Assembly (NCBI GenBank): GCA_033398695.1
Contig: CM065815.1
Location: forward strand, 98,050,501 to 98,114,500
Length of the DNA: 64,000 bases
Direction: 5' to 3'
From: Orobanche coerulescens
Lineage: Eukaryota > Streptophyta > Magnoliopsida > Lamiales > Orobanchaceae
Under the pieces are notes generated by a model. It saw only the letters and a list, made by a program, of their open reading frames with translations. It was not told where the DNA came from and made no database searches. The position numbers were made by a program, and so were the translations under genes. Below are positions 22-44,871 of the stretch, in pieces. Each line of letters opens with the position of its first letter. Position 1 is the stretch's first letter.

Positions 22-519
22 TAGCGCACGCTAATAATCATGAGTAGCGCACGCTATCGTGCAGGTTTAGCGCACGCTACGGATATAAGATAAAGCACGC
101 AAATGCAGTCAGATTGGAAGGAATCTGCGTGTGGACCAGGCCACTTTCGGCACACGTTCTGATAAGTCAACGGATGATTGTAATATAGTACAAGCGCATG
201 CTAAACCCTAAAGGTTAGCGCACGCTAATGGTATATTGGACAAAAAGGAATCTTATCCTCGTCAGCACTTTCGGCGTGTGGACCAGTCTTTGGAGCATAC
301 AGACAAACGAGTCAAGTGATATTAGCGCACGCTAAATGCAAGGAATTGCATACGCTAGAGAGTGTAAGTTACGTATGCTAATGCATGGGCATTATGTACG
401 TAAGCACATGTACGAAGCTAGACAGTAGCGCCTGGACTGCGATAGCGCACGCTAACAAAGTCAGTTAGCGCACGCTAAAGCCGTAGCGCACGCTAAACAT
501 GAGATGTTAGCGCACGCTA
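22..519 (+). promoter_or_regulatory. U3 array of 23-bp-spaced TAGCGCACGCTA motifs (LARD copy 1)
   Basis: Exact or near copies of TAGCGCACGCTA start at 22, 45, 68, 192, 216, 323, 443, 466, 484 and 508. Decayed copies are visible near 92, 346, 369 and 393, and they keep the same ~23-bp step. The remnant CAGTAGCGCCTGGACTG at about 424 matches the inverted-repeat spacers in element C. The array stops about a dozen bases before the TATA box, so it occupies the promoter-proximal U3. Its function is unknown; enhancer or repressor-site arrays are the obvious candidates. Confidence 0.8.
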
Positions 520-2070: not shown

Positions 2071-2214
2071 CCACCTCGTGTTGGTCCGACGGGATCATCG
2101 GGGGATCTATGCTAGCGTGCGTTGGATCATCGAACGGGTTTTCCACCTCGGGTTGGTCTGACGGGATCATCGGGGGAACTAGGCAGTGAACGTTGGATCA
2201 TCGGATTGCCATGT
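2071..2214 (+). repeat. 72-bp imperfect tandem duplication inside LARD LTR
   Basis: Two units begin with CCACCTCG at 2071 and 2143 and share the GACGGGATCATCGGGGG core. The same pair recurs in the other LTR copies from about 7978 and 13874, so the duplication predates their amplification. Confidence 0.7.
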
Positions 2215-3241: not shown

Positions 3242-3253
3242 TGGTATCGGAGC
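3242..3253 (+). promoter_or_regulatory. Primer-binding site, LARD internal region 1
   Basis: TGGTATCGGAGC lies five bases after the LTR end. It differs by one base from TGGTATCAGAGC, the complement of the initiator-Met tRNA 3' end, which is present in the second unit. Confidence 0.8.
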
Positions 3254-5648: not shown

Positions 5649-5683
5649 TTTCGAGGACGAAACTTATTTTAAGTGGTGTAGTA
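5649..5683 (+). promoter_or_regulatory. 3' priming region upstream of LARD LTR copy 2
   Basis: TTTCGAGGACGAAACTTA and the following TTTTAAGTGG lie directly before the LTR start TGTAATATCC. The TTCGAGGACGAA block is typical of plant Tekay/Del-type chromoviruses just before the 3' LTR and also occurs at the 3' end of element C. The purine tract itself is weak (AAGTGGTG). Confidence 0.65.
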
Positions 5684-8600
5684 TGTAATATCCGGAATTT
5701 CTACTACTATTGTTTAATGTTATTTTATCCGAGTTATGTTGTACAATGTGGAATCTGTACAGTGCGGATAAAATATTTGAAGGACTAAGACATATGTATT
5801 GGTATAATTATCGTACTTGGTCGACAATTGGATGTAAGAAATATATGTATTCAGTATGTCGTATGTTCGTATTCTGTATGTTGAGACGTTGGACAAGAAT
5901 AGCTGAAAATGGCTAAGTGTAACATTATTAGCGCACGGTAATAATCATGAGTAACGCATGCTATCGTGCAGGTTTAGCGCACGCTACGGATATAAGATAA
6001 AGCATGCTAATGCAGTCAGATCGGAAGGAATCTGCGTGTGGACCAGGCCACTTTCGGCGCACGTTCTGATAAGTCAACGGATGTTTGTAATGTAGTACTA
6101 GCGCACGCTAAACCCTAAAGGTTAGCGCACGCTAATGGTATATTGGACAAAAAGGAATCTTATCCTCATCAGCACTTTCGGCGTGTGGACCAGTCTTCGG
6201 AGCATACAGACAAACGAGTCAACTGATATTAGCGCACGCTAAACGCGAGGACTTGCGTACACTAGAGAGTGTAAGTTACGTATGCTAATGCATGGGCATT
6301 ACGTACCTAAGCACATGTACGAAGCTAGACAGTAGCCCCTGGACTGCGATAGCGCACGCTAACAAAGTCAGTTAGCGCACGCTAAAGCCGTAGCGCACGC
6401 TAAACATGAGATGTTAGCGCACGCTAGTAATGTATTCTATATAAAGGGGACAGACGGGTATTATGAAGCATTTCGTCCATTTCTTTCATTTCACCCGATA
6501 GAGAGAACCTTGGGAGGACATTTGGAGTTTCTAACACTGAGGGATGATCCTCTTTAACAAGATTAAAGATGGAAATCATGGATTAAAGCTTTGTTCTTGA
6601 AATCATTGGTGATTCTTGGAAATGGATTCAACCTTGGAAATCAATCCATTCCTTCATAAAGGTAATCACTCTTCATCTTTGGATTTCATTTTGGATTGAA
6701 TGTTGATGTTCTTGCGTTGATGATTATCATATAAACAAGTTGACAAGCATGATTATGAGATGGATTACCGGAGTATGATGATATTAATATGATTCGTGTG
6801 GTTTGAATTATGTAGTTCGTTTTCTTGAGATAAGTTGGTGAATCCTTCTTCTCCTTTGCGGTTGTTGATATCATTGTTGATGATTAATCTCCGTAATGTT
6901 AGATTAAGGAAGTGTTGTTATGTTTTTGATGTTTCATGTATTGATATTAAGGAAGATGATATATGGATATAGGACTTGGATTATAAGTTGGATGATTGTT
7001 TATATGTTAAAGGATATCGGATTTCGTTGTTTTGATATCTATGAGCATGAATTAGAATCACTTAGTGTTCTTGATAATCGCCATATGTTGATCGGAATCT
7101 GAAAAACATGCATCAGTACAGCATTAGCGCACGCTAAGCTTACTGGCTAGCGCGCGCTAACGGGAGCAACTTAGCGCATGCTACGTTAAGTGATTAACGT
7201 GCGCTAAGAAGGCAGAAAGTGCTGTATTTTCGTGTTGTGGTTCTGAATTCATGCTGGTTTGAGTTGGATTGATCCGACTAGTGTTTAATCGAGATATTTT
7301 TGAGCCGTTGGGTTTGTGATTTGGTTTTATCGATTGTTGATTGTTATCGAACTTGTTGTCTATCGATTATTGTAATAGGTTGAGATTATTGATCGGTGTT
7401 TATAATCGTGTGTTGCGGTCGAGCTCGGGAAGGTTCGTAGATTGCTTTGGTCAGGACTGAGGAACTTGTAGATGACGGCAATGGATTTGGTAACAGCTTT
7501 CTCTGCGTTGTATCGGTATCGAGGTAAGTTATTACTTGCTCAGTTTATAGTATTTAATGAATGGTTTTCGTTTCATTTGTTTATAATTCGTATAGCAAGG
7601 TTTATAATCGTAATCACATGAGATTTGGGATTATAAATCATATTCGAGTTTTGGGAATCGAAATCATAATGTATATGATTTACTTTTGTTATTGGTATAC
7701 TTGTATATCGAGGATATATCGTGATAAATACGGAGATATGAATTATCTGCAATCCGTGATACTTTGGGCTGTCGAGTATTGAGGATAATGGTTCGTGATG
7801 GTTTAGACATTGAGATCATTCTCGAAGGACTCGGGGCAAGTACTCTAATCATTTTTATCATTTGTGTCGATCATGTCATGATACATTCGTGTATCGTTGT
7901 TGTCATGCATTTGTGCATTGTTGTTGTCGTGTATTGTGTACTGTTATTTTGTGCAGTTGTGCATTGTTCTCATATGTCCACCTCGTGTTGGTCCGACGGG
8001 ATCATCGGGGGATCTATGCTAGCGTGCGCTGGATCATCGAACGGGTTTTCCACCTCGGGTTGGTCTGACGGGATCATCGGGGGATCTAGGCAGTGAATGC
8101 TGGATCATCGGATTGCCATGTATTGTTGTTGTGCATATGTATATTATGGGTTTGCCATAAGTATACATTGTCGTTATTGTTGTGATCATATTGACGTTGT
8201 CATATGAGTATGCATGTGTAGGTCTTGTGTTAGGACCATGTCCATATGTTGTGTTGATCTGATCTTGGATTAGACTGACGTGATTGTCATGGCACTTCGT
8301 ATCTTGATGTATGTTCCATATTTCCTTGGTACTTGTCTTTGATGGACAATCGATTATCGTATTGGAATTGTCGACGTTATCTAATGGATTGAATTGGCCA
8401 GAGTTGGTATAATTTCCGTATCGTGAGTTATGATAATGTTTTGAGAACCTTGGGTATTGTTGAGATACCGTACAGATATTTTGGTATTATCTTATTGTGT
8501 TGTTAAGGACACGAATCATGGATTTTCGTAAAGTTACGATGGTAAGATTACATTGGTCGTATTCTTACTTAGTATTTCCATTGATATGTAATTATTGACG

Positions 8601-9143: not shown

Positions 9144-11579
9144 GAATATGGTATCAGAGCTTAGGTTGAAAAAACCTAGGCATTTGGGTCGAGTTGGGTC
9201 GTGTTTTGTTGCATCATTCGAGTTGTCGATTGACTAATAGTAGAGTCGTGAGTTTTTGTATTCACTCAAGCTTGTACATTATGTGATTAACCAGTATGGT
9301 ACTGGGGTTGTTGTAAACTTTTTCAAATGGTGTTAACGTGTTTCTTCGGATAGAGATGTATTGTGTTCTCGAATTAAACTGAGTTTGCAAAACGTGTGTT
9401 TTGAAAATATCTGTGTCGAGTATTTTCTTGAGTCGAGACATGTGCCAGTATCACGGGGAATCGTCGGCTTCACGATCTGTAAGTATTTGGATTTTTGAAT
9501 TGCATTGAGATTTGCTGTCGTTCTAAGTGACATGCATTGAGATTCAGCAGGATATTATACGTTCTGATGAGGTGAGTAATTGGGATGATTGATGATTTGA
9601 GAAACTATGATTTTGGAAATCAATATATCGGTTAGATTTCGGAACGGAATTGTGCATTTGGGAGAAATGTTGTGCATGGTTGAGAAGAACATGTAGTCAT
9701 GTTAGTTCAGCTTGTGATATATGGAACTGTTTTCGAGCATTTGAAAATGATACTTTTCAAAATGAACGTTTTACGGATGTTTTACCGAAAATGATTTTGG
9801 GCCGAGACCCAATCGATTTTGAAATAGTTTTGTAACTCAGGACTTGGGGTCCAAAAGGGTTTTTCTTCTTTTTAAACTTCTTGTAATGCGGAATGAGATA
9901 CGGGCTGAGACCCTAAGGTTTCAAAAGGCTTTTTTTTGTTTTCTTAAAACTCCCGAGATTTGTAAAACACCTTACTAATCGCTTATGCATTTTATTATTG
10001 CCTTTCGGGGTTTTGGTTTACATATTCAAATAAAACCTCTCGGGAAGTCTTTCAATGTGTTGAGTTGTTTCAATGTTTTGTCATAGCATATTTGAGGTGA
10101 CCCAAGATGGGTTAATGGTTGACGTTGCGAGTCATGTATGGAAGAGGAGTTTGTATCCGAGTTTATATATTGAGATTTTGGAACTCTATCGGGTGATTTT
10201 CTGATGAAATATTAGTGAATATTGGTGACGAACCAAATTGGTATACAGGAGTATGCATGTGGTCAATCATTTGCATAGTTTTCATTTTAAAACTTTAGAA
10301 TCGTGCGGATTCGAAGGAAACTGTTATCGAATACTTGGCACCGGTGAGCCAGTTTAATTTTTCGAAAATTATTTTTGTGGTCTTACGAAAATTTATGTTT
10401 TGAGTTTTGAAATTTTTGAAAGAACTTTAAAAAATTTGTCTTCTTGACGAGACTATATGATTTCAAACTAGTTTTGAAAATATGATCGATATACATATGC
10501 ATTTAGTGCATAATGCATATCATGGTGAAGTTCTGAGTGTGACTCACGAACTGGATAAGACATCAGTATGGTACGAGGAAAAGAGATTCGAACTTCAGTA
10601 TAGTAGTTTGGTTATCCAGGGATGATCGGTTGAATTATCGGATAAGAGAAATATGTCGTGTGTTGTATATTCATGCACATAATATTATTTTGGGAACTTT
10701 GGATTTTGTGAAACCGGGACATATGTGTTATGTGATTCCATTGGTATGGTAGTAGCGTGACTCTACCATAATGATTTTTGAATGATTTCTGTGTAAGTGT
10801 AGATTTGGGGATGGTAACCCCATGCTGGTTGTTTTGGATATTGAGTGGTCATTCCCACTCCATGTATGATTGGATATGTTCGTCGGGTTGTGATTGGTTG
10901 TTCGTATGCCGAGGAGTATGTTCGATAGTCGGGTATTTTTATTGAGATCCATTGTATGTGATTGGTGTGTCGTTTTGAGAACCTTATTTGTTCGTATATT
11001 GGTTTCGGTGGTTCCGTGTTGATCGTGTTGGAGTTTATCGTGTGAAGGTATTCTCGATTTTCGTTGATCGTTCGTTGGTAATATTGGAGTTTATAATGAT
11101 GATGATATTCTCGGGTGTGTTTTGACCTTTGGATTGGTCGTATTAGAGTTTATCATGATATTCTCGGTTAATTTATTGGTTGATTATTGCTAGTGATCAT
11201 CTGAGCGTTCAGATTGTCTGTCGATGTTTCGAGATTCATTGCCATTGCGTTGAGCAGTTGTTTCACAGATGTATCGTGTATTATTGGTTTTTAGCAGATT
11301 GGGACTTGATTATGTAATCAGGCAGACAAAATTTGACACGGATAGATTATTTCATCCGAAGATGATATAATTTGTTGAGACTCATGGAATTGTGATTGAT
11401 AGTATCTCAGGATATCGTCGACTTTGCGCATTTGTAAGTGTACTATTTTGGTTATTCGGTAATAATGACGATTGATCGTTGTCGTGTTGGTTTCAGAATA
11501 TTTTGGTTGAACGGTTTGTTTGTTTTCCTATGACGGATTGCAAGTTTCGAGGACGAAACTTATTTTAAGTGGTGTAGTA
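9144..11579 (+). mobile_element. LARD internal region 2 (non-coding)
   Basis: The second 2436-bp internal region is near-identical to the first, with small indels such as nine bases missing near 11157. The primer-binding site TGGTATCAGAGC is at 9149-9160 and is an exact match to the initiator-Met type. The 3' priming block is at 11545-11579. No coding capacity is seen. Confidence 0.82.
9149..9160 (+). promoter_or_regulatory. Primer-binding site, LARD internal region 2
   Basis: TGGTATCAGAGC lies five bases after the LTR 3' end and matches the 12-nt complement of plant initiator tRNA-Met. It fixes the element's orientation as + strand. Confidence 0.85.
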
Positions 11580-14500
11580 TGTAATATCCGGAATTTCTAC
11601 TACTATTCTTTAATGTTATTTTATCCGAGTTATGTTGTACAATGTGGAATCTGTACAGTGCGGATAAAATATTTGAAGGACTAAGACATATGTATTGGTA
11701 TAATTATCGTACTTGGTCGATAATTGGATGTAAGAAATATATGTATTCAGTATGCCGTATGTTCGTATTCTGTATGTTGAGACGTTGGACAAGAATAGCT
11801 GAAAATGGCTAAGTATAACATTATTAGCGCACGCTAATAATCATGAGTAGCGCACGCTATCGTGCAGGTTTAGCGCACGCTACGGATATAAGATAAAGCA
11901 TGCTAATGCACTCAGATCGGAAGGAATCTGCGTGTGGACCAGGCCACTTTCGGCGCACGTTCTGATAAGTCAACGGATGTTTGTAATGTAGTACTAGCGC
12001 ACGCTAAACCCTAAAGGTTAGCGCACGCTAATGGTATATTGGACAAAAAGGAATCTTATCCTCATCAGCACTTTCGGCGTGTGGACCATTCTTCGGAGCA
12101 TACAGACAAACGAGTCAACTGATATTAGCGCACGCTAAACGCGAGGACTTGCGTACGCTAGAGAGTGTAAGTTACGTATGCTAATGCATGGGCATTACGT
12201 ACCTAAGCACATGTACAAAGCTAGACAGTAGCCCCTGGACTGCGATAGCGCACGCTAACAAAGTCAGCTAGCGCACGCTAAAGCCGTAGCGCACGCTAAA
12301 CATGAGATGTTAGCGCACGCTAGTAATGTATTCTATATAAAGGGGACAGACGGGTATTATGAAGCATTTCGTCCATTTCTTTCATTTCACCCGATAGAGA
12401 GAACCTTGGGAGGACATTTGGAGTTTCTAACACTGAGGGATGATCCTCTTTAACAAGATTAAAGATGGAAATTATGGATTAAAGCTTTGTTCTTGAAATA
12501 ATTGGTGATTCTTGGAAATGGATTCAACCTTGGAAATCAATCCATTCCTTCATAAAGGTAATCACTCTTCATCTTTGGATTTCGTTTTGGATTGAATGTT
12601 GATGTTCTTGAGTTGATGATTATCATATAAACAAGTTGACAAGCATGATTATGAGATGGATTACCGGAGTATGATGATATTAATATGATTAGTGTGGTTT
12701 GAATTATGTAGTTCGTTTTCTTGAGATAAGTTGGTGAATCCTTCTTCTCCTTTGCGGTTGTTGATATCATTGTTGATGATTAATCTCCGTAATGTTAGAT
12801 TAAGGAAGTGTTGTTATGTTTTTGATGTTTCATGTATTGATATTAAGGAAGATGATATATGGATATAGGACTTGGATTATAAGTTGGATGATTGTTTATA
12901 TGTTAAAGGATATTGGATTTCGTTATTTTGATATCTATGAGCATGAATTAGAATCACTTAGTGTTCTTGATAATCGCCATATGTTGATCGGAATCTGAAA
13001 AACATGCATCAGTACAGCATTAGCGCACTCTAAGCTTACTGGCTAGCGCGCGCTAACGGGAGCAACTTAGCGCACGCTACGTTAAGTGATTAACGTGCGC
13101 TAAGAAGGCAGAAAGTGCAGTATTTTCGTGTTGTGGTTCTGAATTCATGCTGGTTTGAGTTGGATTGATCCGACTAGTGTTTAATCGAGATATTGTTGAG
13201 CCGTTGGGTTTGTGATTTGGTTTTATTGATTGTTGATTGTTATCGAACTTGTTGTCTATCGATTATTGTAATAGGTTGAGATTATTGATCGGTGTTTATA
13301 ACCGTGTGTTGCGGTCGAGCTCGAGAAGGTTCGTAGATTGCTTTGGTCGGGACTGAGGAACTTGTAGATGACGGCAATGGATTTGGTAACAGCTTCCTCT
13401 GCGTTGTATCGGTATCGAGGTAAGTTATTACTTGCTCAGTTTATAGTATTTAATGAATGGTTTCTGTTTCATTTGTTTATAATTCGTATAGCAATGTTTA
13501 TAATCGTAATCACATGAGATTTGGGATTATAAATCATATTCGAGTTTTGGGAATCGAAATCATAATGTATATGATTTACTTTTGTTATTGGTATACTTGT
13601 ATATCGAGGATATGTCGTGATAAATACGGAGATATGAATTATTTGCAATCCGTGATACTTTGGGCCGTCGAGTATTGAGGATAATGGTTCGTGATGGTTT
13701 AGACATTGAGATCGTTCTCGAAGGACTCGGGGCAAGTACTCTAATCATTTTTATCATTTGTGTCGATCATGTCATGATACATTCGTGTATCGTTGTTGTC
13801 ATGCATTTGTGCATTGTTATTGTCGTGTATTGTGTACTGTTATTTTGGGCAGTTGTGCATTGTTCTCATATGTCCACCTCGTGTTGGTCCGACGGGATCA
13901 TCGGGGGATCTATGCTAGCGTGCGCTGGATCATCGAACGGGTTTTCCACCTCGGGTTGGTCTGACGGGATCATCGGGGGATCTAGGCAGTGAATGTTGGA
14001 TCATCGGATTGCCATGTATTGTTGTTGTGCATATGTATATTATGGGTTTGCCATAAGTATACATTGTCGTTATTGTTGTGATCATATTGACGTTGTCATA
14101 TGAGTATGCATGTGTAGGTCTTGTGTTAGGACCATGTCCGTATGTTGTGTTGATCTGATCTCGGATTAGACTGACGTGATTGTCATGGCACTTCGTATCT
14201 TGAGGTATGTTCCGTATTTCCTTGGTACTTGTCTTTGATGGACAATCGATTATCGTATTGGAATTGTCGACGTTATCCAATGGATTGAATTGGCCAGAGT
14301 TGGTATAATTTCCGTATCGCGAGTTATGATAATGTTTTGAGAACCTTGGGTATTGTTGAGATACCGTACAGATATTTTGGTATTATCTTATTGTGTTGTT
14401 AAGGACACGAATCATGGATTTTCGTAAAGTTACGACGGTAAGATTACATTGGTCGTATTCTTACTTAGTATTTCCATTGATATGTAATTATTGACGTGAT

Positions 14501-15038
14501 GTGGTGGTTATCATTGTTGGATATTATGGCTGACCCCTTCGTGGGCTTTCTTTTTAGGTTCTTGGATTGTCAAGCTTGTAGCGGTCGTGAAGAGATGAGC
14601 TTCCCGGAGGATACTGGCTAGGACATATATTTGTGTATTGAGTTTCTGATCAGTTGTTGTATTCATTGCTAGAGTATTTTAATTGTTTATCTTTATCCGC
14701 TGCGTGAGTATTTTTAAATGGCCTTTTGGTATCTGGTAACTTAGGTTACTTTGGAAATCGTTTTCTAAATTTGTTCTGTCGGTGCGTGTAAGCTATAGCT
14801 TAACGTATGTTTTTTAAACTGTTGAGTTTTGGCATTTCAGGCCTTGTGGTTTCAAATGAGATTTTTACGACGGTTTTGTTAAACGGGTTTTGTAAAGTCT
14901 TCGAATGTTTTTAAAGATAGTACCGTCGTTCGCCTCTTAGGCGTTTGTAAATGTTTGCAAAAATTTCCTTCAGCCTTGTGGGTTCCATCTCGGGGCCCAC
15001 GGCGCTGTAATATTCCCGGTCGGATCTGGGGTGTTACA
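11580..15038 (+). mobile_element. LARD LTR copy 3 (complete, 3459 bp)
   Basis: The rightmost LTR runs from TGTAATATCC to GTGTTACA. The sequence right after it belongs to the LTR of element G (compare 20166 onward), so the array is inserted there. The left junction, and hence the target duplication, is outside the window. The motif array spans 11825-12322 and the TATA box 12334-12341. Confidence 0.88.
11825..12322 (+). promoter_or_regulatory. U3 array of TAGCGCACGCTA motifs (LARD copy 3)
   Basis: Same arrangement as the arrays at 22 and 5929, with independent single-base changes in individual units. The last unit begins at 12311, 23 bp before the TATA box. Confidence 0.78.
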
Positions 15039-15442
15039 GATCGCACCAAAACTTATAACGACACTCCAAAAAGGTCGGAGTGAGGAATACGAAAGAAGTT
15101 CCCCAAGACCTTGGGAAATTACGAAATGGCCCGAACGACCGAAATATCACGATACGACAATGGATAACCAAACCGAAGCTCCCAACATGTCTAACAAAGT
15201 TAAACAAACTTTGAAGGAACTCGAAACAACATATTCGAACAAGATTCACAAGAATCAAACTCAAGCGCGGAAAAGTCGCTTAAGAACACGGAACTCAACA
15301 AAACGACACCAAAGTGAAATCGGGTGACAAAAAGTGCAGAATTAATCATTCTCAGAATAACGAAACTGTCACAGGCGAGCCGTTAAAATGGTCTCCTGCC
15401 AGAAAAAGAAATTTACCGAAAATCAAAATTGCGGATATTAAA
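15039..15442 (-). mobile_element. Gypsy element G, 3' LTR fragment
   Basis: This 404-bp segment aligns with the outer part of G's 5' LTR (about 20166-20571). It is the U3 start of the 3' LTR, cut by the LARD insertion at 15038. On the minus strand it begins TTTAATATCCGC, a mutated TGTAATATCCGC. The rest of this LTR must lie left of the window. Confidence 0.8.
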
Positions 15443-18500: not shown

Positions 18501-19375
18501 TTTATGTAACACCCCCAATCCACTCAGGGATATTACACGTCGTAGACCCTTTTCTCAAAGATCTACTAGGCTGGTAACAAAATCAAACATTTCAACATCG
18601 CCTTTAAGACTAAAATGACCCAATAGTCTGATTTGGTCTTTAATTAATACATACAACTCAATCTCAATACATACCCACGCAGGGGTCAAAATACAACACG
18701 CTCCCGTACAAGGGGAAAATACTGCAGCCGAAATAACTACGACTAACCCAATACAAAATCGTATGGGTCCTCATGTAATTAGTATCGATCATCATTCATC
18801 ATCCTTCGTGCCAACCCTGTGTTATGCTCCCCAAGGCCATGCACGTACCTGAATGCCATAAAGACATCCACCCCCTGATTTCTCGGGGGTTAGCAAAATT
18901 CTACTATTTTGCTAGTGCAAGCACAAAGTGCAAATACGAGTCATACAAATCATATTCCAAGAATAATATTAATCAGGAATCCTCAAAAATTCAAACATAA
19001 CAAGAGATACTTCCCGAGGCAAAGAGTTTGAGTAAAACCGTCCAAATTCGAAATATCACAAATCAAGAGAACAATTTATAAAATGTTTTAAAATGCCATT
19101 GGGAGTTTTAACGGAAAACAATTTAGGATTATCGAATCCTTCTCTTTCAAAAAAACCGAAAGGGGTCACAGCCCAAAGATTTGATTTCTCAAATAAAACC
19201 AACAGTAATTCACGGGGTCCACAACCCGCACCAGGTGTCCTCGACGGACATAAAATCAACAACACATAACCACCCAAGATACGAAATCTCGGTAACACGT
19301 CCAAGGTACTTGACCCTGACAAAAATACATCCACAATCATATCCATGACACCGTTATCGCTTGCCACGTGTCAAC

Positions 19376-19677
19376 AGGCTCTCACGGTTGGATCAATCAC
19401 TTTTTGCATCTTGACCACATGATCACAAGCCATGTGTCACCGTAGTTTTCTTAGGCTCTCACGGTTGGATCAATCACTTGTTTCATCCTGACCACATGAT
19501 CACAAGCCATGTGTCACCGTAGTTTTCTTAGGCTCTCATAGTTGGATCAATCACTTGTTGCATCCTGACCACATGATCACAAGCCATGTGTCACCGTAGT
19601 TTTCTTAGGCTCTCATAGTTGGATCAATCACTTGTTGCATCCTCACCACATGATCACAAGCCATGTGTCACCATAGA
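19376..19677. repeat. 77-bp tandem repeat, about four copies, in LTR of G
   Basis: Units start with GGCTCTCAYRGTTGGATCAA; the CTCAC/CTCAT marker is at 19381, 19458, 19535 and 19612, an exact 77-bp period. Each unit carries CACATGATCACAAGCCATG followed by GTCACCGTAG. Adjacent units differ by one to three bases, so the expansion is recent. Confidence 0.9.
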
Positions 19678-19777
19678 CCTCGCCCAGCTTCACGGCTAGA
19701 CTAAGGCCACACATTCACACCACTTAATACAGTACACCAAGGATATCCCAACAATTCACCTAGAGGCAACAAATACT

Positions 19778-20147
19778 TAGCGTGCGCTATCGAGGCACCA
19801 GAACAAAACTTCTTGTCCAAAACACACTGTTAGCGTGCGCTAACCACAAGTGTTAGCGTGTGCTAACGAGACCTCCAGACCCAGTCCAGTAGCTCCTGGA
19901 CTGCCCCCGAACTACCAGTTAGCGTGTGCTATCCTCACCATATCGTGTGCTACTGTTGCACCTTAGCGCGCGCTATACCACTACATAGCGTGCGCCAATC
20001 AACGTTCCAAAGCCAATCAACATTCCAACCTTGTCCATAAGTCTCTGGACTGTTTCTGCACCTCCAGTTAGCGTGCGCTAATTGTGTCTCAGCGTGCGCT
20101 AGCAATCTCAAGTGGCGCACGCTATATCTAGCCCATAGTGTGCGCTA
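19778..20147 (-). promoter_or_regulatory. U3 array of TAGCGTGCGCTA motifs in LTR of G
   Basis: On the plus strand, copies start at 19778, 19831, 19854, 19920, 19941, 19964, 19986, 20069, 20090, 20113 and 20136. Neighbours within a group are 21-23 bp apart. Two gaps contain CTGGACTG half-sites (about 19894 and 20045). In element sense the motif reads TAGCGCACGCTA, the same polarity as in the LARD and in C. The unit at 20113 is inverted (TGGCGCACGCTA). Confidence 0.8.
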
Positions 20148-20573
20148 TTCCTACTGCATAGTCAGTAGGATTGCACTAAAACTCATAACGACACTCTAAA
20201 AATGTCGGAGTGAGGAATACGAAAGAAGTTCCCCAAGACCTTGGGAGATTACGAAATGGCCCAAACGACTGAAATATCATGATACGATAATGGATAACCA
20301 AACCGAAGCTTCCAACATGTCTAACAAAGTTAAAAAACTTTGAAGGAACACAAAACAGCATATTCGAACAAGATTCGCAAGAATCAAACTCAAGCGCGGA
20401 AAAGTCGCTTAAGAACACGGAACTAAATAAAATGACACCAAAGAGAACTCGGATGACAAAAAGTGCAGAATTAATCATTCTCGGAATGACAAAACGGTCA
20501 CAGGCGAACCGTTAAAATGGACTCCTACCAAAAAAATAAACTTATCGAAAATCGAAATTGCGGATATTACAGC

Positions 20574-34808: not shown

Positions 34809-37237
34809 TGTAACACCCCAAACTAGGCGGATATTACAGTGCCGTGGACCCCCGACTGGGACCCACCAGGCGAATGAAAATGAATGAATTACACAGGTAA
34901 ATGTAGTACCGAACCACATTACAACATCAATTACTCCGATGAGGAGTTTTATACAACACACCTGTGATGATATCAATACAAGTATATTTTATATGGAGAT
35001 AAAATATACAACAATGAGTGAAATGAATATTCAACTAATGTCTACAAATGGGAATAAATAAAAGAAACATAATGATCGAAAAGACTGGGCCCCTACTAGT
35101 ATCACTGGGACTCTCGCCACCGTGCTCTCCCGTGCCTTAGCCTTGCCATGACACGAAAAAGATCCCCAACGGCCATACGTAACAACAATCCTCAAGGGTT
35201 GAAAATACACAATCATGATATATCTCAAATTATGAATTATCCTGCCGAAACATACGCAATCAAACATGCTATATGAATCGACTATCGACGGCTCAAAGGA
35301 ATGGCGCCACACTACGTCCGGATGGAAATGTGTCCGTGCACAAGCCACCATCACACGTGGTCTCGTGCCTAATCGCCTCACGAAGCAATCGACTCGTGCA
35401 CACCCAATATGAGGCCAACAACCATCACACGACATAATTGTGCCCGACATGAAAATCCTACACATTCCAACCGCACGCCAAGATGACCGGAATGTCACAA
35501 TATGACAAAAGTGACAACGAAAATGAATAATGACTCACCAAGATTAAATGATGGTGAAATGAATGATAGCTCAATGAAATAATCGGAACCGCTGCTCCTT
35601 ATGACTGAAGTGATTAGTTGACAATGACAAGTTTTGATACGGTTAATACAATGATGAATTTGTTACGATTATGAATGAACAACAACAAAAGGAATGAATA
35701 TCCTTTTAACCGAGTAAGAATTAACTTACACAATACCGATGAAGAATGTCCTTCCACGAACAACGTCCTAAATGAAAAGTCGGTCGCTCGAACAACCTTG
35801 AACATCAATAGTTACCAACAACCGATCAATACACGACTCAAATACGATCATAATCGACCCAAACGTCGATACAACAATATCCGAACTCGTAGATGTACTC
35901 TAACGAAAACGTTGAGATACCCGTTGGTTAAAACCAAACCCAAATTATCGAACCAACTCCAAAATGATTGATTCAAACCAGTACAACATTATCAATGACA
36001 TCAATAATCTCATAGAAGTCCACAATTCCAGTTTATAATAACGACAATCGGAAATCCCCAAAATAATCAAGTCAACCCCAAGGGTTCTTGGAATAATTCT
36101 GAAAATAACCATTAAATCCGTAGGAATATATTTATCCAAGTTAGATAATCCATAACTAACATATTCCAATGATAATCCAAGCTTACACGAAGAAATCGGA
36201 AGGAAAACCCCAAAAATCCGAAATTCTAGATCCAAGAGATTAATACCTTTGATTCGATGCGATGAAGATGATGAAATGATAATTAATCCGAAAGATGAGC
36301 TTGAAGATGATGATTGACGATTACACCTCGAAGAATCCTCTCCGAATCGCTCGAATTCGCCCAAAACTACCGAAGGAATGAAATGAGATGAATAATGACG
36401 AACTCTGACTAAACTGTCCAATTTATAGTCAGTCCAGGTTAGCGTGCGCTAGCCCTTGTGCGTAGCGTGCGCTAACGAGTAATTTGGGTAGTCCAGTACC
36501 CACTGTCCGAACACGGTAGCGCGCGCTACGTACCTTCTTGTAGCGTGCGCTACGGTCATACTACTAGCGTGCGCTAAGACCCATTATTAGCGTGCGCTAA
36601 CGAAATATTGATGCCCAGCGCTGGAGTCCAGAAAACTATCTGACCTCTGATCTGACCCCGGTAGCGTGCGCTACAACCATTGTTTAGCGTGCGCTAATTA
36701 TATCGGTTGCGTACGCTAACAACAACACATAGCGTGTGCTATGAAATAATCATGCGATCCAAAGAGCCACCGGACTCAACCCGATCCGTCCTTAGCGCGC
36801 TACACCTCATATTAGCGTGCGCTACTTCAACCCACTAGCGCGCTACTTACCAATCGTAGCGTGCGCTTACTTATAACTCACCGCAGCCCAAGACCTTCGG
36901 ATCGCAATGTGGTAACCTTAGCGTGCGCTAAAGCCGAGTGGTAGCGTGCGCTACCTATACCGAATTAGCGTACGCTAAAAGGAGTATGTAGCGTGCGCTA
37001 CTCCTCACGCATACCGCAACGAAAATGACAATGATGATAAACACGCACGAAACTCCAATCGATTAGTGATGAATGACGATTGATACACGATACAATTACT
37101 CCGAATGATGAATACCATGACTGAATATGAGTGACAAATGATCAATGATGAATGAGATTACCGAGTATCAATTCTTGAATGATAAATACCGAATGATAAT
37201 TCTTGAGTGATAATTATCAATTACAACCGGTATTACA
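34809..37237 (-). mobile_element. Chromovirus C, 3' LTR (2429 bp)
   Basis: On the minus strand it starts TGTAATACC at 37237 and ends GGGGTGTTACA at 34809. It pairs with the 5' LTR at 42421-44871. Between about 35560 and 36750 the two are almost identical. Outside that they differ in dense clusters, mainly at CAG/CTG sites. It contains the TAGCGTGCGCTA array (36440-37000) and a TATA box (minus-strand ACTATAAAT, 36420-36429). A minus-strand frame of about 158 codons at 35945-36421 lies in R-U5 and is not a known protein. Confidence 0.92.
36440..37000 (-). promoter_or_regulatory. U3 motif array, 3' LTR of C
   Basis: About 18 copies of TAGCGTGCGCTA (plus-strand view), matching the array at 44061-44628 copy for copy. 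Several have lost two bases (TAGCGCGCTA near 36792 and 36837). The inverted-repeat spacers at about 36755 and 36880 are scrambled relative to the partner LTR. The array lies directly upstream (element sense) of the TATA box. Confidence 0.82.
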
Positions 37238-37269
37238 TACACCCCCTTAAAAGAGTTTCGTCCTCGAAA
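37238..37269 (-). promoter_or_regulatory. 3' priming region of chromovirus C
   Basis: The minus strand reads TTTCGAGGACGAAACTCTTT and then TAAGGGGGTGTA, directly before the LTR. The block is nearly identical to the one before the LARD LTRs, evidence that the two are related. Confidence 0.75.
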
Positions 37270-37742
37270 CTAAGGGTCAAACAACTCGGGATAACTCTCC
37301 CGCATACCGTCCCTCGGTTTCCCAAGTAGCCTCTTCGACTCCGTGTCTAGACCACCGAATTTTAACCAAAGGAATCGTCTTATTCCTCAACCGCTTGATT
37401 CGCCGCTCTAAAACTCGCATAGACGTTCCTCATATGAATGATCATCGGCGATCTCGATTTCCGAATCAAGTATGTGACTCGGTCGGCAACATACTTCCGC
37501 AAATCGAGAGACATGAAACACATTATGAATTCGGCTCAACGCCGAGGTAAAGCCAATCGATAAGCTAACTCGCCTACTCGATCCAAAATCTCAAACGGTC
37601 CAATGAATCTCGGACTCAACTTCCCCTCTTCCCAAAACGGAAGATACCACGACTGGGATACCTTCACCAACACGTGGTCACCGCCTCGAACTCTAAAGGT
37701 CGATTTACGGTTATCTGCATATGATTTACCGACTCGAGTCAC
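37270..37742 (-). pseudogene. pol: Chromovirus C: integrase C-terminus and chromodomain, frameshifted
   Basis: The segment 37742-37536 shows KSYADNRK, the GDHVLVKVS fold and FIGPFEILDRVGELAYRLALP. It loses frame at 37536, where a CTGG-type site appears to be missing. The chromodomain follows in another frame, with RHGVEEATWET near 37340 and, after an extra base, SYPELFDP before the stop at 37270-37272. E shows the same architecture, so C is also a Tekay/Del-type chromovirus. Confidence 0.8.
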
Positions 37743-38350
37743 AACAAACGACTCCTGATCAAAGCTACCTTCTCACGGGCGGCTATAAGCATATCGGGCT
37801 CGGTGCCGATTGATTCTGATAAGTCGTCCCAACATAACGGAGATCGACAACGACGACCATACAAGGCCTCGTAAGGTGCCATCTTGATCGAAGCATGCCA
37901 ACTGTTATTATACGTGAACTCGATTAATGATAGTTGGGCTTCCCAATCGTCTTTCCAGTCGAGGACGCATGCCCTCAACATGTCCTCTAATGTCTGAATG
38001 GTCCTCTCTGATTGTCCGTCGGACTGAGGGTGAAAAGCGGTACTGAGATTAAGCTGGGTTCCCATAGCACGATGAACTGATTTCCAAAAATGCGACACAA
38101 ATCGTCCGTCACGATCAGAAACGATACTTTTAGGAGTACCGTGAAGTCCGACTATCTCTTTGATGAACAGTTGAGCAAGTCTCTCGGGACCCCACGTCTC
38201 CTTGATATCAAGGAAATGAGCTGATTTAGTTAAGCGGTCCACGATCACCCAGATCGTATTCATGCCACGACGACTCGTAGGCAAACTCGTGATGAAATCC
38301 ATAGAAATGTCTTCCCACTTCCACTCGGGAATAGGAAGGGGTTTCAGCAT
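37739..38350 (-). pseudogene. pol: Chromovirus C: integrase core (open 203 codons)
   Basis: An uninterrupted integrase core. It includes ISMDFITSLP (first Asp), IWVIVDRLTKSAHF, SIVSDRDGRFVSHFW (second Asp), STAFHPQSDGQSERTIQ (Glu) and FTYNNSWHASIKMAPYEALYG. All three catalytic acids are visible. It is flanked by frame breaks on both sides: a TGA separates it from the zinc finger at about 38351-38359, and it runs out of frame at 37739. Confidence 0.88.
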
Positions 38351-38359
38351 ACCCGCCGG

Positions 38360-38710
38360 TCACTGATGTTCAATCTTAACTTGTTGACAGGTTAAGCATC
38401 TCGAAACAAATTCTGCGACTTCTCGCTTCATATTACTCCACCAGTAATTTTGTTTCAAGTCCTTGTACATCTTGCTAGACCCCGGATGCACAGAATAACG
38501 GGTAGCATGAGCTTCTTTCAAAATCGAGTTTTTCAACTCGTCATTCGCTGGTACGCACAACCGATTCTTAAACCTCAAAAGTCCATCCTCGTGGACCATA
38601 AATCCAGGGGCTTTCCCCTGAGCCACATCCTCTCGGATGCGCAACAATGATGGGTCCGAACCCTGATTCTCTCGGATTTCCTCCTCGAGTGACCATGAAA
38701 TCTCTAACAT
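38360..38710 (-). pseudogene. pol: Chromovirus C: integrase H2C2 zinc finger
   Basis: This carries the tether between RNase H and integrase (GLLRFKNRLCVP) and the zinc-binding segment HATRYSVHPG ... CLTCQQVKIEHQ (His, His, Cys, Cys). It continues in frame into the integrase core across the single TGA near 38356. Confidence 0.85.
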
Positions 38711-40130
38711 ACAAAGCCGCTCGAACTCGCCAATCAGACCTCGATCTCGTGTCTAAGGAATTCCCGCCAAGCTCCTTCGAATCGTTAAACGGGCAAGCAT
38801 CCGCTTCCCGAACGGACTTACGACTCAAGGCGTCGGCGACAACGTTCGCCTTGCCCGGTGGTAGAGGATCTCGATATCATAATCTTTGATTAATTCCAAC
38901 CACTGTCTTCGCGCATATTTAACTCCTTCGAGTAAATATATACTTTAAGCTCTTATGATCGGTGAATATCTGTGTAACGCCATAAAGATAATGACGCCAA
39001 ATTTTCAAAGCGAACACCACGGCTAGCTCCGTGTCGTGGGTCGGATAATTAACCTCGTAAGGTCTCAATTGCCGTGAAGCATAGGCAATAACTTTCCTGC
39101 TTCGCATGAGTACACATCCGAGACCCCGTCCGGATGCATCACTATAAACCAAAATCCTTCCGTCCCTCGGCAAGGAGAGTACAGTGCTGACATTAACCGG
39201 CTCTTGAGTTCCTCAAAACTCCGTTGACACGCGTCGGACCACGTGTATTTCTTATCCTTCCGCAAAGGTTCGTTAAGGGTTGAGCGATTCGAGAAAATCC
39301 TCTACAAATCGCCGATAATAACCCGCTAATCCGAGGAAACTTGGATTTCCTTAACGTTCTTCTGAGGTAGCCAATCTCGAATAGCCTCCGTCTTCTCGAG
39401 GGTCGATACGAACTCCGTCTCGATGAAATTACATGTCCGAGAAAAGTCACTGACATCCGAACTCACATTTGGAGAACTTCCCATAAAGTTGTTCTCGTCT
39501 CAACACGCCGAGCACTTGATGAAGGTGAAACTCGTGTTCCTCCCGGCCACGAGAATAAATCAAAATGTCATCGAAGACAACAACAACCGATCCAAAAGTC
39601 GATGAAAACTCGATTCATTAACTCCATGAATACCGCAGTGCATTAGTCAATCCGAACGGCATAACCACAAACTCATAATGACCATAGCGTGTTCGAACGC
39701 CGTCCTCGCGATATCCGACTCGAATCCGCAATCGATGATATCCAGATCTTAAGTCGATCTTGGAAAATACTCAAGCTCCTGAAGTTGATCTAAGAGATCA
39801 TCAATACGGGTAAGGGATACTTATTCTTGATCGTCACCCTATTCAACTCCCGATAATCAATACAAGCGGAATGAACCATCCTTTTTCTTGACAAACAACA
39901 CCGGTGCTCCCCACGGGGACGCACTTTCGGTCGGATATAACCTTTCTCGAACAACTCCTCAAGTTGGTTCTTTAATTCTGCATTTCGGCCGGGCCATCCA
40001 GACGGTGCCTTCGATATCGGGACGTACTGTGCTCCAACTCAATCGTGAATTCCACATCCCTCGTGGAGGCAAACCAGTAACTCGTCTGGAAAACATCGCA
40101 TATTCCTCACCACCGAATATCCGTTAACAT
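38711..40130 (-). pseudogene. pol: Chromovirus C: RT and RNase H, heavily frameshifted
   Basis: The RNase H is readable at 39173-38919 ([42 protein letters not shown]). Upstream, the RT can be followed only in pieces ([38 protein letters not shown]). The catalytic motif at about 39575 reads FDDIL on the minus strand, one residue shorter than the usual F-I-DDIL. Frame breaks are roughly every 100 bases, far denser than in the integrase core 1 kb away. Confidence 0.75.
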
Positions 40131-40220
40131 TATCGATGATTTCTGCTTTTGGCCATATAGCACCAATAACCGACACATCCCCGATTGAGTAACCTTACCG
40201 CTTTCATCAAATTAATGACT

Positions 40221-40766
40221 TTACTGCAATGTGGGATTACCTCCCTGAAACACACATTCGACTCCATCGTCTGAAATGATAGTGACCAAACGCTTTCGGA
40301 CACTAATGATGGCATCATGACGATCCATCCAATCAATACCCAATATGACGTCGTCCCTCGGCAAATCTACTACGATTAGGTCCGCTGGCCATACACGACC
40401 ATGAAACTGAATCGGACAATTCTGAATTTCACGGTTACCGATAATTCGTCTACCATCAGGTAGGCCAATGACATAAGGCTCACAACTAGTAGCACTACCC
40501 AGACGTAGTCTACTCAAACATGACTCGGAAATGAATGAATGAGATGCACTAGTATCAAAAAGGATACACACAGGTTGAGATAGAATATCGAGTGTACCTG
40601 AGATCATTCGGGCCTCGGGATCATCGGTCTTCTTCATCTCATAAATTCGGGGCTTGCCGGCCCCCGAACCGGACGCTCCCGTCTGATAGCTCTTGGCTCC
40701 GCCTTTAGCTCCTGTCGTCTTGAACGACGCCGACCGAGTGGCTTTGATTACGCACCTGAATGACAC
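40221..40766 (-). pseudogene. pol: Chromovirus C: protease
   Basis: Aspartic protease with the catalytic region ILFDTSASHSFISESCL, where the usual DTGA is DTSA, and the flap/second-half segment DDVILGIDWMDRHDA. The upstream linker is rich in Gly/Ser/Lys. It would release Gag and Pol products in the particle. The Gly-to-Ser change next to the catalytic Asp would probably abolish activity. Frame is lost near 40221 before the RT. Confidence 0.85.
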
Positions 40767-40839
40767 GGGGGCTTGAGATGACGCCGGAGTGGGTTTAGAG
40801 TCCCTACGGCAAAACGGGCCCTATGCCCAAGAATCCTGA

Positions 40840-41928
40840 TTATGGCACGTGACGTGATGGCTTCGGACATTTTGTGCTGAAATGACCCTGTTCTTCACAG
40901 TTGAAACAGGTGACGGCTGAACTGGCCGCTCGAGACTGAGATTCCGCGGGTTTAGATGCTAGGGGAGGTCGCTCAGAAAAAGTAGAGCCCGCCCGCGGTT
41001 TTTTGAAGGTGGCCTGACTTCCGTCAGACTGATTACGGTTCTTAGACTTCTTGCCAGCAGATGAAGGTTGCTGCTTAGAAATCTCCTTAACAGTAAGCTC
41101 GTAAGTGAGAGCTTTCTCAATGAACTCGGCCAACGTGGTGCAATTATGATTAAGTAACTGAAGTCTCATACGGGGTTTCAGCCTCTTGCTGAAATACTTG
41201 ATCTTGTCCGCTTCTGAGTGAATGATAGATGAGGCGAACGGAAGAAGTTCCTGAAATTTCTCGGCACTGGCGAGAACATCCGCGTCTGATGAAGGGTCGG
41301 GAGTGAGTAACTCTGACAGCTTGGCCTCTCTGAGTGGGGCCGGATAATACCTCTCCATCATGAGAGTCTTGAATCGATCCCAAGTACATGATCCGCTTTG
41401 TGGGCTTCAACGATAACCACCATGAATGAGCGCTCTTACCGAGATAGTAAGCCGCAATCGAAACTTTATGCCCTTCGTGGCAATCCACCATAGCAAATAA
41501 TTTCTCAAAATGCTCAAGCCAATGAACAATATCCGCCGGCTCGATGAGCCCTCAAAGGTAGGTGGTCGCCGCGAGAGATATCGCTAATGATATTGCTTAC
41601 ACTCCTCTCTTGCCTCCGAGGTGGCGGCGAGGAGCCCGCTGATTTTGATTGACGGAGTTATGCATCGTCTCCATCAACCGAGCCATCTCGGGTCATTTGG
41701 GCCGCCATGCCTCGCATAAATGCGAGTGGGTCAACCCGACACCCTCCGATCGAGCCATGTCCTGCACGACTCCGATAGTGAATGATCGCGCCTGTGTGAG
41801 TGAGTGAGTGGCCACACGCTCGATGAGTTAGCATTATTCCTGGCATTTGCACGTGTATTCGCACGAGTTCTCGGGATTCGGCCCGCTCCACGGCCTCGTC
41901 CTCCACGTCCTCTGCCAGCCCTTTCCAT
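40840..41928 (-). pseudogene. gag: Chromovirus C: Gag, frameshifted
   Basis: The likely start is at 41928 (MERAGRGRGGRGRG), matching the basic Gly/Arg N-terminus of G's Gag. The frame shifts several times (near 41730, 41650-41500 and 41360) and then stays open for 173 codons (41361-40840). That stretch holds the retrotransposon-gag core (MMERYYPAPLREAK, FSKRLKPRMRLQL, LAEFIEKALTYE) and a CCHC knuckle, CFNCEEQGHFSTKC. The broken N-terminal stretch is also the part that contains few CAG/CTG triplets. Confidence 0.82.
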
Positions 41929-41946
41929 ACTGAAGTGGAAAGTCAT

Positions 41947-42405
41947 ATGATGATTATATATCTCGCATGAGTATCACATTATGATTATATTATGAAATGA
42001 TGAAAATGAGCATACGCGCTAAACTACAGCGATTATATGAATGATTAATTGACGTGACATGATTATCTGATGAAGTTACTGAAATGATTATCTTGAATGA
42101 GTTAACAAGATTAATGATTTGATCTTCCTGATCAACAACTGAATAACGAAATGAATTGAGTGATTAATGAGTTAACCTGACCGTCTTGGTCAAAATGACA
42201 ATGATGATTGAGGATTGTTAACTGATGAATTATGAATGAATGATTAATGCCAGAAATTATACCATGGCATTAGAAATCTTACAGTTCTTGGTCTGATTGG
42301 CTCGGCATTTGCACAGGTCACACGTGACGCGAAAGTCCAATGATACTAGTCCGATGACGATGATTTCAAATGAGACATGACTTGGAGGGTAGTATTCAAA
42401 ACCAC
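41947..42405 (-). mobile_element. Chromovirus C leader (non-coding)
   Basis: About 460 bp between primer site and gag, rich in TGAATGA/TGATTAT-type short direct repeats. No reading frame. Confidence 0.6.
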
Positions 42406-42420: not shown

Positions 42421-44871
42421 CGTAACACCCCAAACTAGGCGGATATTACGGTGCCGTGGACCCCGATCGGGACCCACCAGCGAATGAAAATGAATGAATT
42501 ACACAGTAAATGTAGTACCGAACCACATTACAACATCAATTACTCCGATGAGGAGTTTTATACAACACACCTGGATGATATCAATACAAGTATATTTTAT
42601 ATGGAGATAAAATATACAACAATGAGTGAAATGAATATTCAACGGAATGTCTGCAATGGAATAAATAAAAGAAACATAATGATCGAAAAGATCGGGGCCC
42701 CTACTAGTATCACTGACTCTCGCCGTCACCGTGCTCTCCCCGTGCCTTAGCCTTGCCATGACAAACAAAGATCCCAACGGGCCGCATACGTAACAACAAT
42801 CCTCAAGGGTTGAAAATACACAATCATGATATATCTGAAATTATGAATTATCCTGTCGAAACATACGCAATCAAACATGCTATATGAATCGACTATCAGT
42901 ACGGCTCAAAGGAATGGCGCCACACTACGTCCGGGATGGAAATGTGTCCGTGCACAAGCCACCATCACACGTGGTCTCGTGCCTAATCAGTCTCACGAAG
43001 CAATCGACTCGTGTGCACAGTCCAATATGAGGCCAACAACCATCACACGACATAATTGTGCCCGACATGAAAATCCTACACATTCCAACCGGCACGCCAG
43101 TATGACCCGGAATGTCACAATATGACAAAAGTGACAACGAAAATGAATAATGACTCACCAAGATTAAATGATGGTGAAATGAATGATAGCTCAATGAAAT
43201 AATCGGAACCGTCGTTCCTTATGACTGAAGTGATTAGTTGACAATGACAAGTTTTGATACGGTTAATACAATGATGAATTTGTTACGATTATGAATGAAC
43301 AACAACAAAAGGAATGAATATCCTTTTAACCGAGTAATAATTAACTTACACAATACCGATGAAGAATGTCCTTCCACGAACAACGTCCTAAATGAAAAGT
43401 CGGTCGCTCGAACAACCTTGAACATCAATAGTTACCAACAACCGATCAATACACGACTCAAATACGATCATAACCGACCCAAACGTCGATACAACAATAT
43501 CCGAACTCGTAGATGTACTCTAACGAAAACGTTGAGATACCCGTTGGTTAAAACCAAACCCAAATTATCGAACCAACTCCAAAATGATTGATTCAAACCA
43601 GTACAACATTATCAATGACATCAATAATCTCATAGAAGTCCACAATTCCAGTTTATAATAACGACAATCGGAAATCCCCAAAATAACCGAAGTCAACCCC
43701 AAGGGTTCTTGGAATAATTCCGAAAATAACCATTAAATCCGTAGGAATATATTTATCCAAGTTAGATAATCCATAACTAACATATTCCAATGATAATCCA
43801 AGCTTACACGAAGAAATCGGAAGGAAAACCCCAAAAATCCGAAATTCTAGATCCAAGAGATTAATACCTTTGATTCGATGCGATGAAGATGATGAAATGA
43901 TAATTAATCCGAAAGATGAGCTTGAAGATGATGATTGACGATTACACCTCGAAGAATCCTCTCCGAATCGCTCGAATTCGCCCAAAACTACCGAAGGAAT
44001 GAAATGAGATGAATAATGACGAACTCTGACTAAACTGTCCAATTTATAGTCAGTCCAGGTTAGCGTGCGCTAGCCCTTGTGCATAGCGTGCGCTAACGAG
44101 TAATTTGGGTAGTCCAGTACCCACTGTCCGAACACGGTAGCGCGCGCTACGTACCTTCTTGTAGCGTGCGCTACGGTCATACTACTAGCGTGCGCTAAGA
44201 CCCATTATTAGCGTGCGCTAACGAAATATTGATGCCCAGCGCTGGAGTCCAGAAAACTATCTGACCTCTGATCTGACCCCGGTAGCGTGCGCTACAACCA
44301 TTGTTTAGCGTGCGCTAATTATATCGGTTGCGCACGCTAACAACAACACATAGCGTGCGCTATGAAATAATCCAGTGCAGTCCAGTAGCCACTGGACTCA
44401 ACCTGATCCGTCCTTAGCGCGCGCTACACCTCATATTAGCGTGCGCTACTTCAACCCACTAGCGTGCGCTACTTACCAATCGTAGCGTGCGCTATTTATA
44501 ACTCACCTGCAGTCCAGTACCTTCTGGACTGCAGCCAGGGTAACCTTAGCGTGCGCTAAAGCTGAGTGGTAGCGTGCGCTACCTATACCCAATTAGCGTA
44601 CGCTAAAAGGAGTATGTAGCGTGCGCTACTCCTCACGCACAGCTCGCAACGAAAATGACAATGATGATAAACACGGCACGAAACTCCAATCAGATTAGTG
44701 ATGAATGACGATTGATACACGATACAATTACTCTGAATGATGAATACCATGACTGAATATGAGTGACAAATGATCAATGATGAATGAGATTACTGAGTAT
44801 CAATTACTGAATGATAAATACTGAATGATAATTACTGAGTGATAATTACTGAATTACAACTGGGTATTACA
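42421..44871 (-). mobile_element. Chromovirus C, 5' LTR (2451 bp)
   Basis: On the minus strand it begins TGTAATACCC at 44871; the inner end reads CGTAACACC in the plus-strand view, a one-base change from TGTAACACC. The ACCCG duplication follows at 44872. It contains the best-preserved TAGCGTGCGCTA array (44061-44628) and a TATA box (minus-strand ACTATAAATT, 44041-44050). Its first 400 bp also show CTG-type disruptions (for example GATCGGG where the partner has GACTGGG). Confidence 0.92.
44061..44628 (-). promoter_or_regulatory. U3 motif array, 5' LTR of C (18 copies)
   Basis: Plus-strand copies of TAGCGTGCGCTA or close variants start at 44061, 44084, 44138, 44162, 44186, 44209, 44283, 44306, 44328, 44351, 44415, 44437, 44460, 44483, 44547, 44570, 44594 and 44617. 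Steps within groups are 22-24 bp; groups of two to four are separated by steps of 54, 74, 64 and 64 bp. The wide gaps hold inverted repeats such as CAGTCCAG-N6-CTGGACTG (about 44506-44532) and CAGTCCAG-N5-ACTGGACT (about 44376-44398). The array ends about 10 bp upstream (element sense) of the TATA box. Confidence 0.88.

Follow-up and report, generated by a model that had tools for sequence, protein, structure and literature searches.

Plant gypsy LTR promoters are usually too diverged to be aligned, which makes the upkeep of their activity hard to study. The Orobanche coerulescens locus described here raises this problem in a concrete form: one of its LTRs carries a dense series of short palindromes set at a nearly constant step. 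What is this series, does it recur in other LTRs, and what might it do? We address these questions across the whole stretch of DNA that was analyzed (64,000 nucleotides, hereafter the window). An earlier note on this DNA had picked out the series, and we state below how its claims fared.

The palindrome array and its host element

The 5' LTR of the retrotransposon that we call element C contains 18 sites of the form TAGCG-N2-CGCTA (Table 1). Seventeen have exact arms, and the site at 44328 has one mismatch. Read in the sense of the element, the sites fall into groups of 4-4-4-4-2, and successive groups are separated, last site to first site, by 64, 64, 74, and 54 bp. All 13 steps within groups measure 22 to 24 bp. 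The earlier note had reported 18 copies of TAGCGTGCGCTA or variants at 44061-44628, with within-group distances of 22 to 24 bp and group separations of 54, 74, 64, and 64 bp in plus-strand order; the sequence itself and a mismatch scan give the same 18 sites, steps, and separations. It had also described the spacers as unrelated, and we find that spacers within an array are as dissimilar as shuffled ones (all-pairs comparison of 13, 11, and 7 spacers in element C and in two further LTR families, A and D; p 0.17-0.43). A tandem-repeat origin of the spacers is thus unsupported. Tandem Repeats Finder detects only fragments of the arrays.

Matches to TAGCG-N2-CGCTA are strongly overrepresented in the window: 101 were found with at most two mismatches against 11.3 expected, and none of 100 shuffles contained as many. 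Every one of the 67 exact-arm copies lies within nine LTR intervals, which were themselves drawn from the motif matches. Thirty-four successive exact-arm steps measure 22 to 24 bp, compared with a mean of 3.9 and a largest value of 13 among 2000 random placements, although this count is pseudo-replicated, since family A contributes three copies to it and C two. We also scanned the window for dyads in general (exact 5-bp arms, a gap of 0-8, arms of A/T only excluded, at least four occurrences within 800 bp). The sole recurrent dyads were TAGCG-N2-CGCTA and two register-shifted readings of it, and five randomized windows gave none. GC content is 0.48-0.52 in the arrays versus 0.37-0.41 outside, and CpG observed/expected ratios are little changed (array/rest of LTR: 1.27/1.26, 1.35/1.22, and 0.96/0.86).

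Element C is flanked on both sides by a perfect 5-bp target-site duplication, CGGGT. Adjoining its 5' LTR is a primer-binding site (TGGTATCGGAGC at 42417), which we take to be of the tRNA-Met type. The Pfam scan covered 9 of the 24 open frames of at least 60 aa that overlap the internal region, together with one LTR frame, and identified zf-CCHC, RVP_2, RT_RNaseH, Integrase_H2C2, and SH3_Tf2-1 in the internal region. The integrase core was recognized via homologs bearing PF00665, and the reverse transcriptase by tblastx to element E, a coding relative of C. On the order of its domains and its gypsy-type domains, C is classified as a Ty3/gypsy element. The earlier note had placed the array in the U3 of a chromovirus. 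Its location in the U3 of a Ty3/gypsy element is upheld, and the chromovirus label is probable: the scanned frames contain Integrase_H2C2 and SH3_Tf2-1 and gave no Pfam chromodomain match.

Protein searches with the integrase of C and with the reverse transcriptase of E each returned 7997 matches, and for both, the best named among the 120 matches listed were from Asteraceae, Striga, and Dorcoceras. A search for the C integrase in viral contigs confirmed no relative, and one stretch matched a pattern. The 138-aa open frame adjoining the array had nine candidates, none at E 0.1.

Table 1. Positions in the window of the LTRs, palindrome arrays, linker dyads, and TATA-like sequence described in the text.
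Feature	Position	Strand	Basis and remarks
5' LTR of element C (TGTAATACCC...GTGTTACG)	42421..44871	-	LTR pair, primer-binding site, target-site duplication
3' LTR of element C	34809-37237	-	LTR pair
Internal region of C: broken gag, PR, RT, RNase H, integrase	37238..42405	-	Ty3/gypsy order
Array of 18 TAGCG-N2-CGCTA sites, C 5' LTR	44061..44628	-	LTR positions 244-811; sequence and mismatch scan
Same array in C 3' LTR, partly decayed	36440..37000	-	Motif scan, LTR comparison
TATA-like TATAAAT, 12 bp past last C site	44042..44048	-	Sequence match only; LTR position 824
Linker dyad GTCCAG-N6-CTGGAC, C groups 1/2	44512..44529	-	Exact
Linker dyad GTCCAG-N6-CTGGAC, C groups 2/3	44380..44397	-	Exact
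Linker dyad GTCCAG-N6-CTGGAC, element D	19884..19901	-	Exact
Linker dyad of element D, one mismatch	20033..20050	-	Near match
Array in LTR copy A1	22..519	+	Motif scan; LTR starts outside window, ends 3236
Array of 13 sites in LTR copy A2 (5684-9143)	5929..6426	+	Motif scan; LTR positions 246-743
Second 4-site group in A2	7125..7206	+	Steps 23, 24, 23; LTR positions 1442-1523, downstream of TATA-like sequence
Array in LTR copy A3 (11580-15038)	11825..12322	+	Motif scan, TATA-like match
Array of 11 sites (4 exact-armed) in D 5' LTR (18505-20571)	19778..20147	-	Groups 4-4-2-1; LTR positions 425-794

The same motif and step in three LTR families

The array is not confined to one LTR: it recurs in the second LTR of C and in families A and D, which the earlier note overlooked. 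Family A occupies positions 1-15038 of the window as a tandem LTR-internal-LTR-internal-LTR arrangement with copies 97-98% alike, and its two internal regions of ~2.44 kb contain no open frame of at least 150 aa. Two of the 13 sites in A2 have three arm mismatches and were accepted by phase; one site follows its predecessor at 18 bp. A TATA-like sequence, TATATAAA, lies just past the A2 array at 6438 (LTR position 755). Each A LTR has a second four-site group with 23/24-bp steps (1218-1299, 7125-7206, and 13021-13102). It lies ~690 bp beyond the TATA-like sequence, where transcribed leader is expected. Family A ends within the apparent 3' LTR of D (15038-15440), at D-LTR position ~403, some 20 bp ahead of where the D array would begin. 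Just downstream of the array in the D 5' LTR, at 19376-19676, is a 77-bp tandem repeat (3.9 copies, 96% matches).

We find that the element-sense consensus of the sites is identical in C, A, and D (TAGCGCACGCTA). The site center is CA in 14 of 18 sites in C, 13 of 17 in A, and 9 of 11 in D. Steps in the three families average 22.97 bp (sd 0.74, n = 31), a figure that, like the spacer set, excludes the 18-bp step of A (690-708) and includes some sites admitted by phase; site 708 of A was also left out of one phase scan. Within the LTR, the array starts at 244 bp in C, at 246 bp in A, and at 425 bp in D. A TATA-like sequence stands directly after the last site in both LTRs of C and in A2 and A3, at a distance of 11-13 bp in these two of the three families.

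Outside the arrays, the LTRs of the three families do not align. Full-LTR blastn (E 1e-3) gave C-A, C-D, and A-D matches confined to the arrays (±20 bp). Between the gag regions of C and D, tblastx shows a distant similarity (two 76-residue segments at about 30-32%), and for A it gives no match to any of C, D, and E. The coding regions of E and C share 52% identity over their longest tblastx segment (258 residues).

The best match between C and D spans 161 columns at 69% identity and is collinear over a group, a linker, and a second group. Given this collinearity, the arrays of C and D probably derive from a single block, by inheritance or exchange, that retained its motifs and lost most of its spacer sequence. 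Identical columns make up 57/63 of the motif, 22/44 of the short spacers, and 32/54 of the linker; since the alignment was chosen by score, these figures are upper bounds.

The earlier note had proposed comparing motifs with spacers, on the expectation that spacers evolve faster. The score-picked alignment of C with D bears this out, and comparisons between LTR copies of the same family are mixed. Between the two LTRs of C, differences were counted at 2/212 motif positions (plus five gap columns), 3/144 short-spacer positions, 20/204 linker positions, and 46/1861 positions in the rest of the LTR. Motifs thus changed less than the remainder of the array (2/212 vs 23/348), yet short spacers are as stable as motifs, and the excess change lies in the linkers. 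All but three of the array differences fall at LTR positions 334-539. The differences cluster at 44333-44538 of the window, chiefly in linker dyads, and just one falls within LTR positions 540-900, a pattern like that left by gene conversion. Among three non-independent pairs of A copies (motif vs rest of array: 4/156 vs 4/342, 9/156 vs 13/342, and 5/156 vs 17/342), motifs changed faster in two and slower in one. Most differences between the LTRs of one insertion arise after insertion and therefore say little about selection. Conservation across families is stronger evidence than rates within them.

A second motif in the linkers

The linkers between groups share a motif of their own. In element sense, TGGAC is present in all 10 between-group linkers, and it is the only one of the 1024 possible 5-mers with this distribution. 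When linker letters were shuffled, TGGAC occurred in a mean of 0.65 linkers and in five at most (20,000 trials). The next commonest 5-mer, CTGGA, overlaps TGGAC and is found in 7 of 10. Exact copies of the larger dyad GTCCAG-N6-CTGGAC number three in the window, two in C and one in D, and family A has none. With up to two mismatches allowed, this dyad is not enriched (14 in the window vs 4-14 in 10 randomized windows).

TGGAC also tends to stand at a regular distance from the sites. Linkers in C are 42, 52, 52, and 62 bp long, and TGGAC begins 31, 31, 32, and 22 bp (C), 30, 10, 52, and 53 bp (A), and 32, 32, and 12 bp (D) from the end of the preceding site. The helical repeat of DNA is ~10.4-10.5 bp. 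The offsets are phased at 10.5 bp with R 0.885, and the best period is 10.4 bp (8-14 scanned), though this period was found post hoc and 6 of the 11 offsets are 30-32, which may represent one inherited arrangement. Collapsing the offsets to four classes leaves p ~0.02. Random placements matched the observed phasing in 0 of 10,000 trials at 10.5 bp and in 0 of 3000 after scanning periods of 8-14. The phasing persists when C, A, or D is removed (40, 14, and 2 of 20,000, respectively) and when two weak A sites are removed (2/20,000). For the offsets to the next site, phasing is only weak (R 0.59, p 0.02). Some 5-mers found in fewer linkers reach a higher R, mostly via overlap with TGGAC or the dyad.

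The palindromes themselves do not share this helical register. According to the earlier note, ~2.2 turns per step would keep bound proteins on a similar face of the DNA. A 23-bp step corresponds to 2.19 turns, and each successive site is therefore rotated by ~69 degrees; nor do the sites cluster at 10.5 bp (R 0.12 for the 18 sites of C, 0.29 for A, and 0.29 for D). We therefore reject the same-face reading for the sites.

Possible functions and known precedents

We suggest that the array activates a Ty3/gypsy LTR promoter from upstream and that proteins bind its two motifs in duplex DNA; judging from sequence, we put the probability of this reading at roughly 0.6. Each TAGCG-N2-CGCTA dyad would be a site for a dimeric, most likely host-encoded, protein, and the 23-bp step brings up to four such sites together in a group. 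In every linker, TGGAC would be bound by a second factor, in C and D partly in the form of GTCCAG-N6-CTGGAC. Since TGGAC tends to follow the final site of the group before it by a whole number of helical turns, the two factors would be able to touch on the duplex and might bind cooperatively, and the assembly would drive the TATA box 11-13 bp downstream.

The earlier note had likewise envisaged a multi-site platform for a dimeric protein controlling LTR transcription. This remains the best reading, given the U3 position, the TATA-like sequence 12 bp downstream, the motif and step kept in three non-aligning LTR families, and the second, phased motif. It is the dyad that points to a dimer, and the same-face argument has to be dropped. 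Some observations count against this reading. Family A has its second four-site group past the TATA-like sequence, a position unexpected for a simple upstream activator. Element E, despite its coding relationship to C, shows no array of this kind over the 2.4 kb at the start of its LTR. Near the array of D there is no TATA-like match (its single match is at LTR position 1492), and the C 5' LTR has another match inside the array, in linker 1 (LTR position 372).

More speculatively, Ty3/gypsy LTRs, apart from Sireviruses, might have settled on an enhanceosome-like two-factor code, with groups of four at 23 bp and a second factor at whole turns in each linker, that was kept while other LTR sequence turned over. 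Such a code could rely on a shared trans-acting protein, serve non-autonomous families as well, and sustain transcription against silencing. We regard this wider scenario as doubtful. A regulatory code that outlasts recognizable LTR similarity would offer a handle on these promoters, as there would be one protein to find. The rule of palindrome, 23-bp step, and TGGAC at whole turns can be scanned for in any genome.

It is also conceivable, though unlikely, that the array attracts a protein which clears DNA methylation from the LTR or prevents it and so keeps the promoter open, as VANC does at the motif arrays of VANDAL DNA transposons. VANC target arrays consist of a non-palindromic motif, YAGTATTAY, often in tandem repeats, and the binder is encoded by the element (PMC5735166). 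In the passages of that paper compared here, dense short motifs in the same orientation are what VANC21 requires; the present arrays are similarly short in motif, dense, of one orientation, and located in non-coding TE DNA. Each motif has two CpGs, which are retained in all 18 sites of the C 5' LTR, and CpG transitions account for 9 of 21 arm deviations in A2 and the D 5' LTR (5/13 and 4/8, respectively), a mark of past methylation. However, our motif is a palindrome within an LTR retrotransposon, and its spacers look unrelated where VANC arrays, in the passages compared, are often tandem repeats. Furthermore, the Pfam scan found no protein beyond gag-pol in C, whose coding region is broken (9 of 24 frames of at least 60 aa, plus one LTR frame), and CpG ratios in the arrays are little above those in the rest of the LTR.

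An improbable alternative is that a host protein docks on the array and represses these LTRs. The same sequence facts would fit, and several LTR families would be exposed to a host factor. Elements would, however, be expected to drop such sites, yet these are retained in three diverged families.

More improbable again is a role at the RNA level, with the 3' U3 copy forming hairpins in genomic RNA that give rise to small RNAs or aid RNA packaging. Predicted folding is stronger for the arrays (z -10.0 for C, -3.7 for D, and -3.5 for A) than for one control stretch of the C LTR (-1.2), and maize Sirevirus palindromic clusters are described as having an excess of small RNAs (Bousios et al. 2016, as cited in PMC10760457). 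Palindromes, though, fold regardless of use, and the 10.4-bp period of the offsets is a feature of duplex DNA. Bases flanking the 12-mer pair slightly above expectation (21/46, p 0.04), but this signal comes from C alone (p 0.04 in C, 0.65 in A, and 0.63 in D), and the next two positions do not show it.

We consider least probable a functionless, decayed repeat block, common by descent or copied between LTR families via recombination, since the near-identical array starts in C and A (244 and 246), the collinearity of C and D (161 columns, 69%), and C short spacers as stable as motifs have to be set against motif, step, and TGGAC being kept between families whose spacers are at best half identical, and against a Tandem Repeats Finder report of fragments only.

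Tandem enhancer boxes occur in the U3 of Tnt1. Two or three tandem repeated cis-acting motifs are reported for Ty1/copia LTRs (PMC2829016). Our arrays resemble these as repeated boxes in an LTR, presumably cis-acting, but comprise 11-18 dyads with a two-motif grammar rather than two or three copies. The Sireviruses, which are Ty1/copia elements, carry palindromic repeated motifs in their LTRs, with at least eight near-identical palindromes per element when linker copies are counted (Bousios et al. 2010, PMC2829016). These mostly begin 200-400 bp past the LTR start and occupy the 300-500 bp that follow, ahead of the TATA box. As described there, the motifs are nearly identical among elements of very low sequence homology, contain a CGG-CCG core in 12 of 13 elements, and are called Sirevirus-specific relative to classic Ty1/copia elements.

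On the passages of that paper compared here, the likeness extends to number (18 palindromes in the C 5' LTR, 13+4 in A2, and 11 in the D 5' LTR, mismatched sites included), to a cluster start 200-400 bp into the LTR (C and A, with D at 425 just outside), and to a position upstream of a TATA-like sequence (C and A, not D). The host, in contrast, is Ty3/gypsy by its order of PR, RT, RNase H, and integrase rather than Ty1/copia, and the core is TAGCG-N2-CGCTA rather than CGG-CCG. The arrays here have a 23-bp step, groups of at most four, and a second phased motif; the passages compared do not report step or grouping for Sireviruses. The earlier note had stated that no plant LTR array of such design was described, which the Sirevirus motifs contradict in kind. 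Thus, as far as those passages go, palindromic arrays before a TATA box were already known in kind, and what differs here is the superfamily, the motif, and the phased second motif. If confirmed, our reading would suggest that both LTR superfamilies have palindromic arrays ahead of the TATA box.

Regulatory DNA made up of repeats, in part palindromic, is described, by citation of other work, as widespread among TE families. A literature search covering titles and abstract openings, with few subscription papers, gave no palindromic or tandem Ty3/gypsy LTR array among the matches listed, and a search with the motif letters gave no plant-retrotransposon title among the matches listed.

Pairs of sites 9-13 bp apart were found at 4 viral contigs and 21 prokaryote loci, with two to five near-exact sites together. 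GC content is 0.58-0.72 in 21 of these 25 stretches and 0.46-0.54 in the other four, and none of the 25 contains a large array. We set them aside as probable chance matches, operators, or local repeats. Two (L003 and L022) have the plant-type center bases CA/TG in both sites. In L022, from Aurantiacibacter xanthus, two exact TAGCGCACGCTA sites lie 22 bp apart at 396-429, matching the plant sequence and nearly the plant step. Three contigs of one Tannerellaceae MAG (L010, L016, and L018) have 23-bp tandem repeats of TAGCGGCCGCTA near the ends of the stretches examined.
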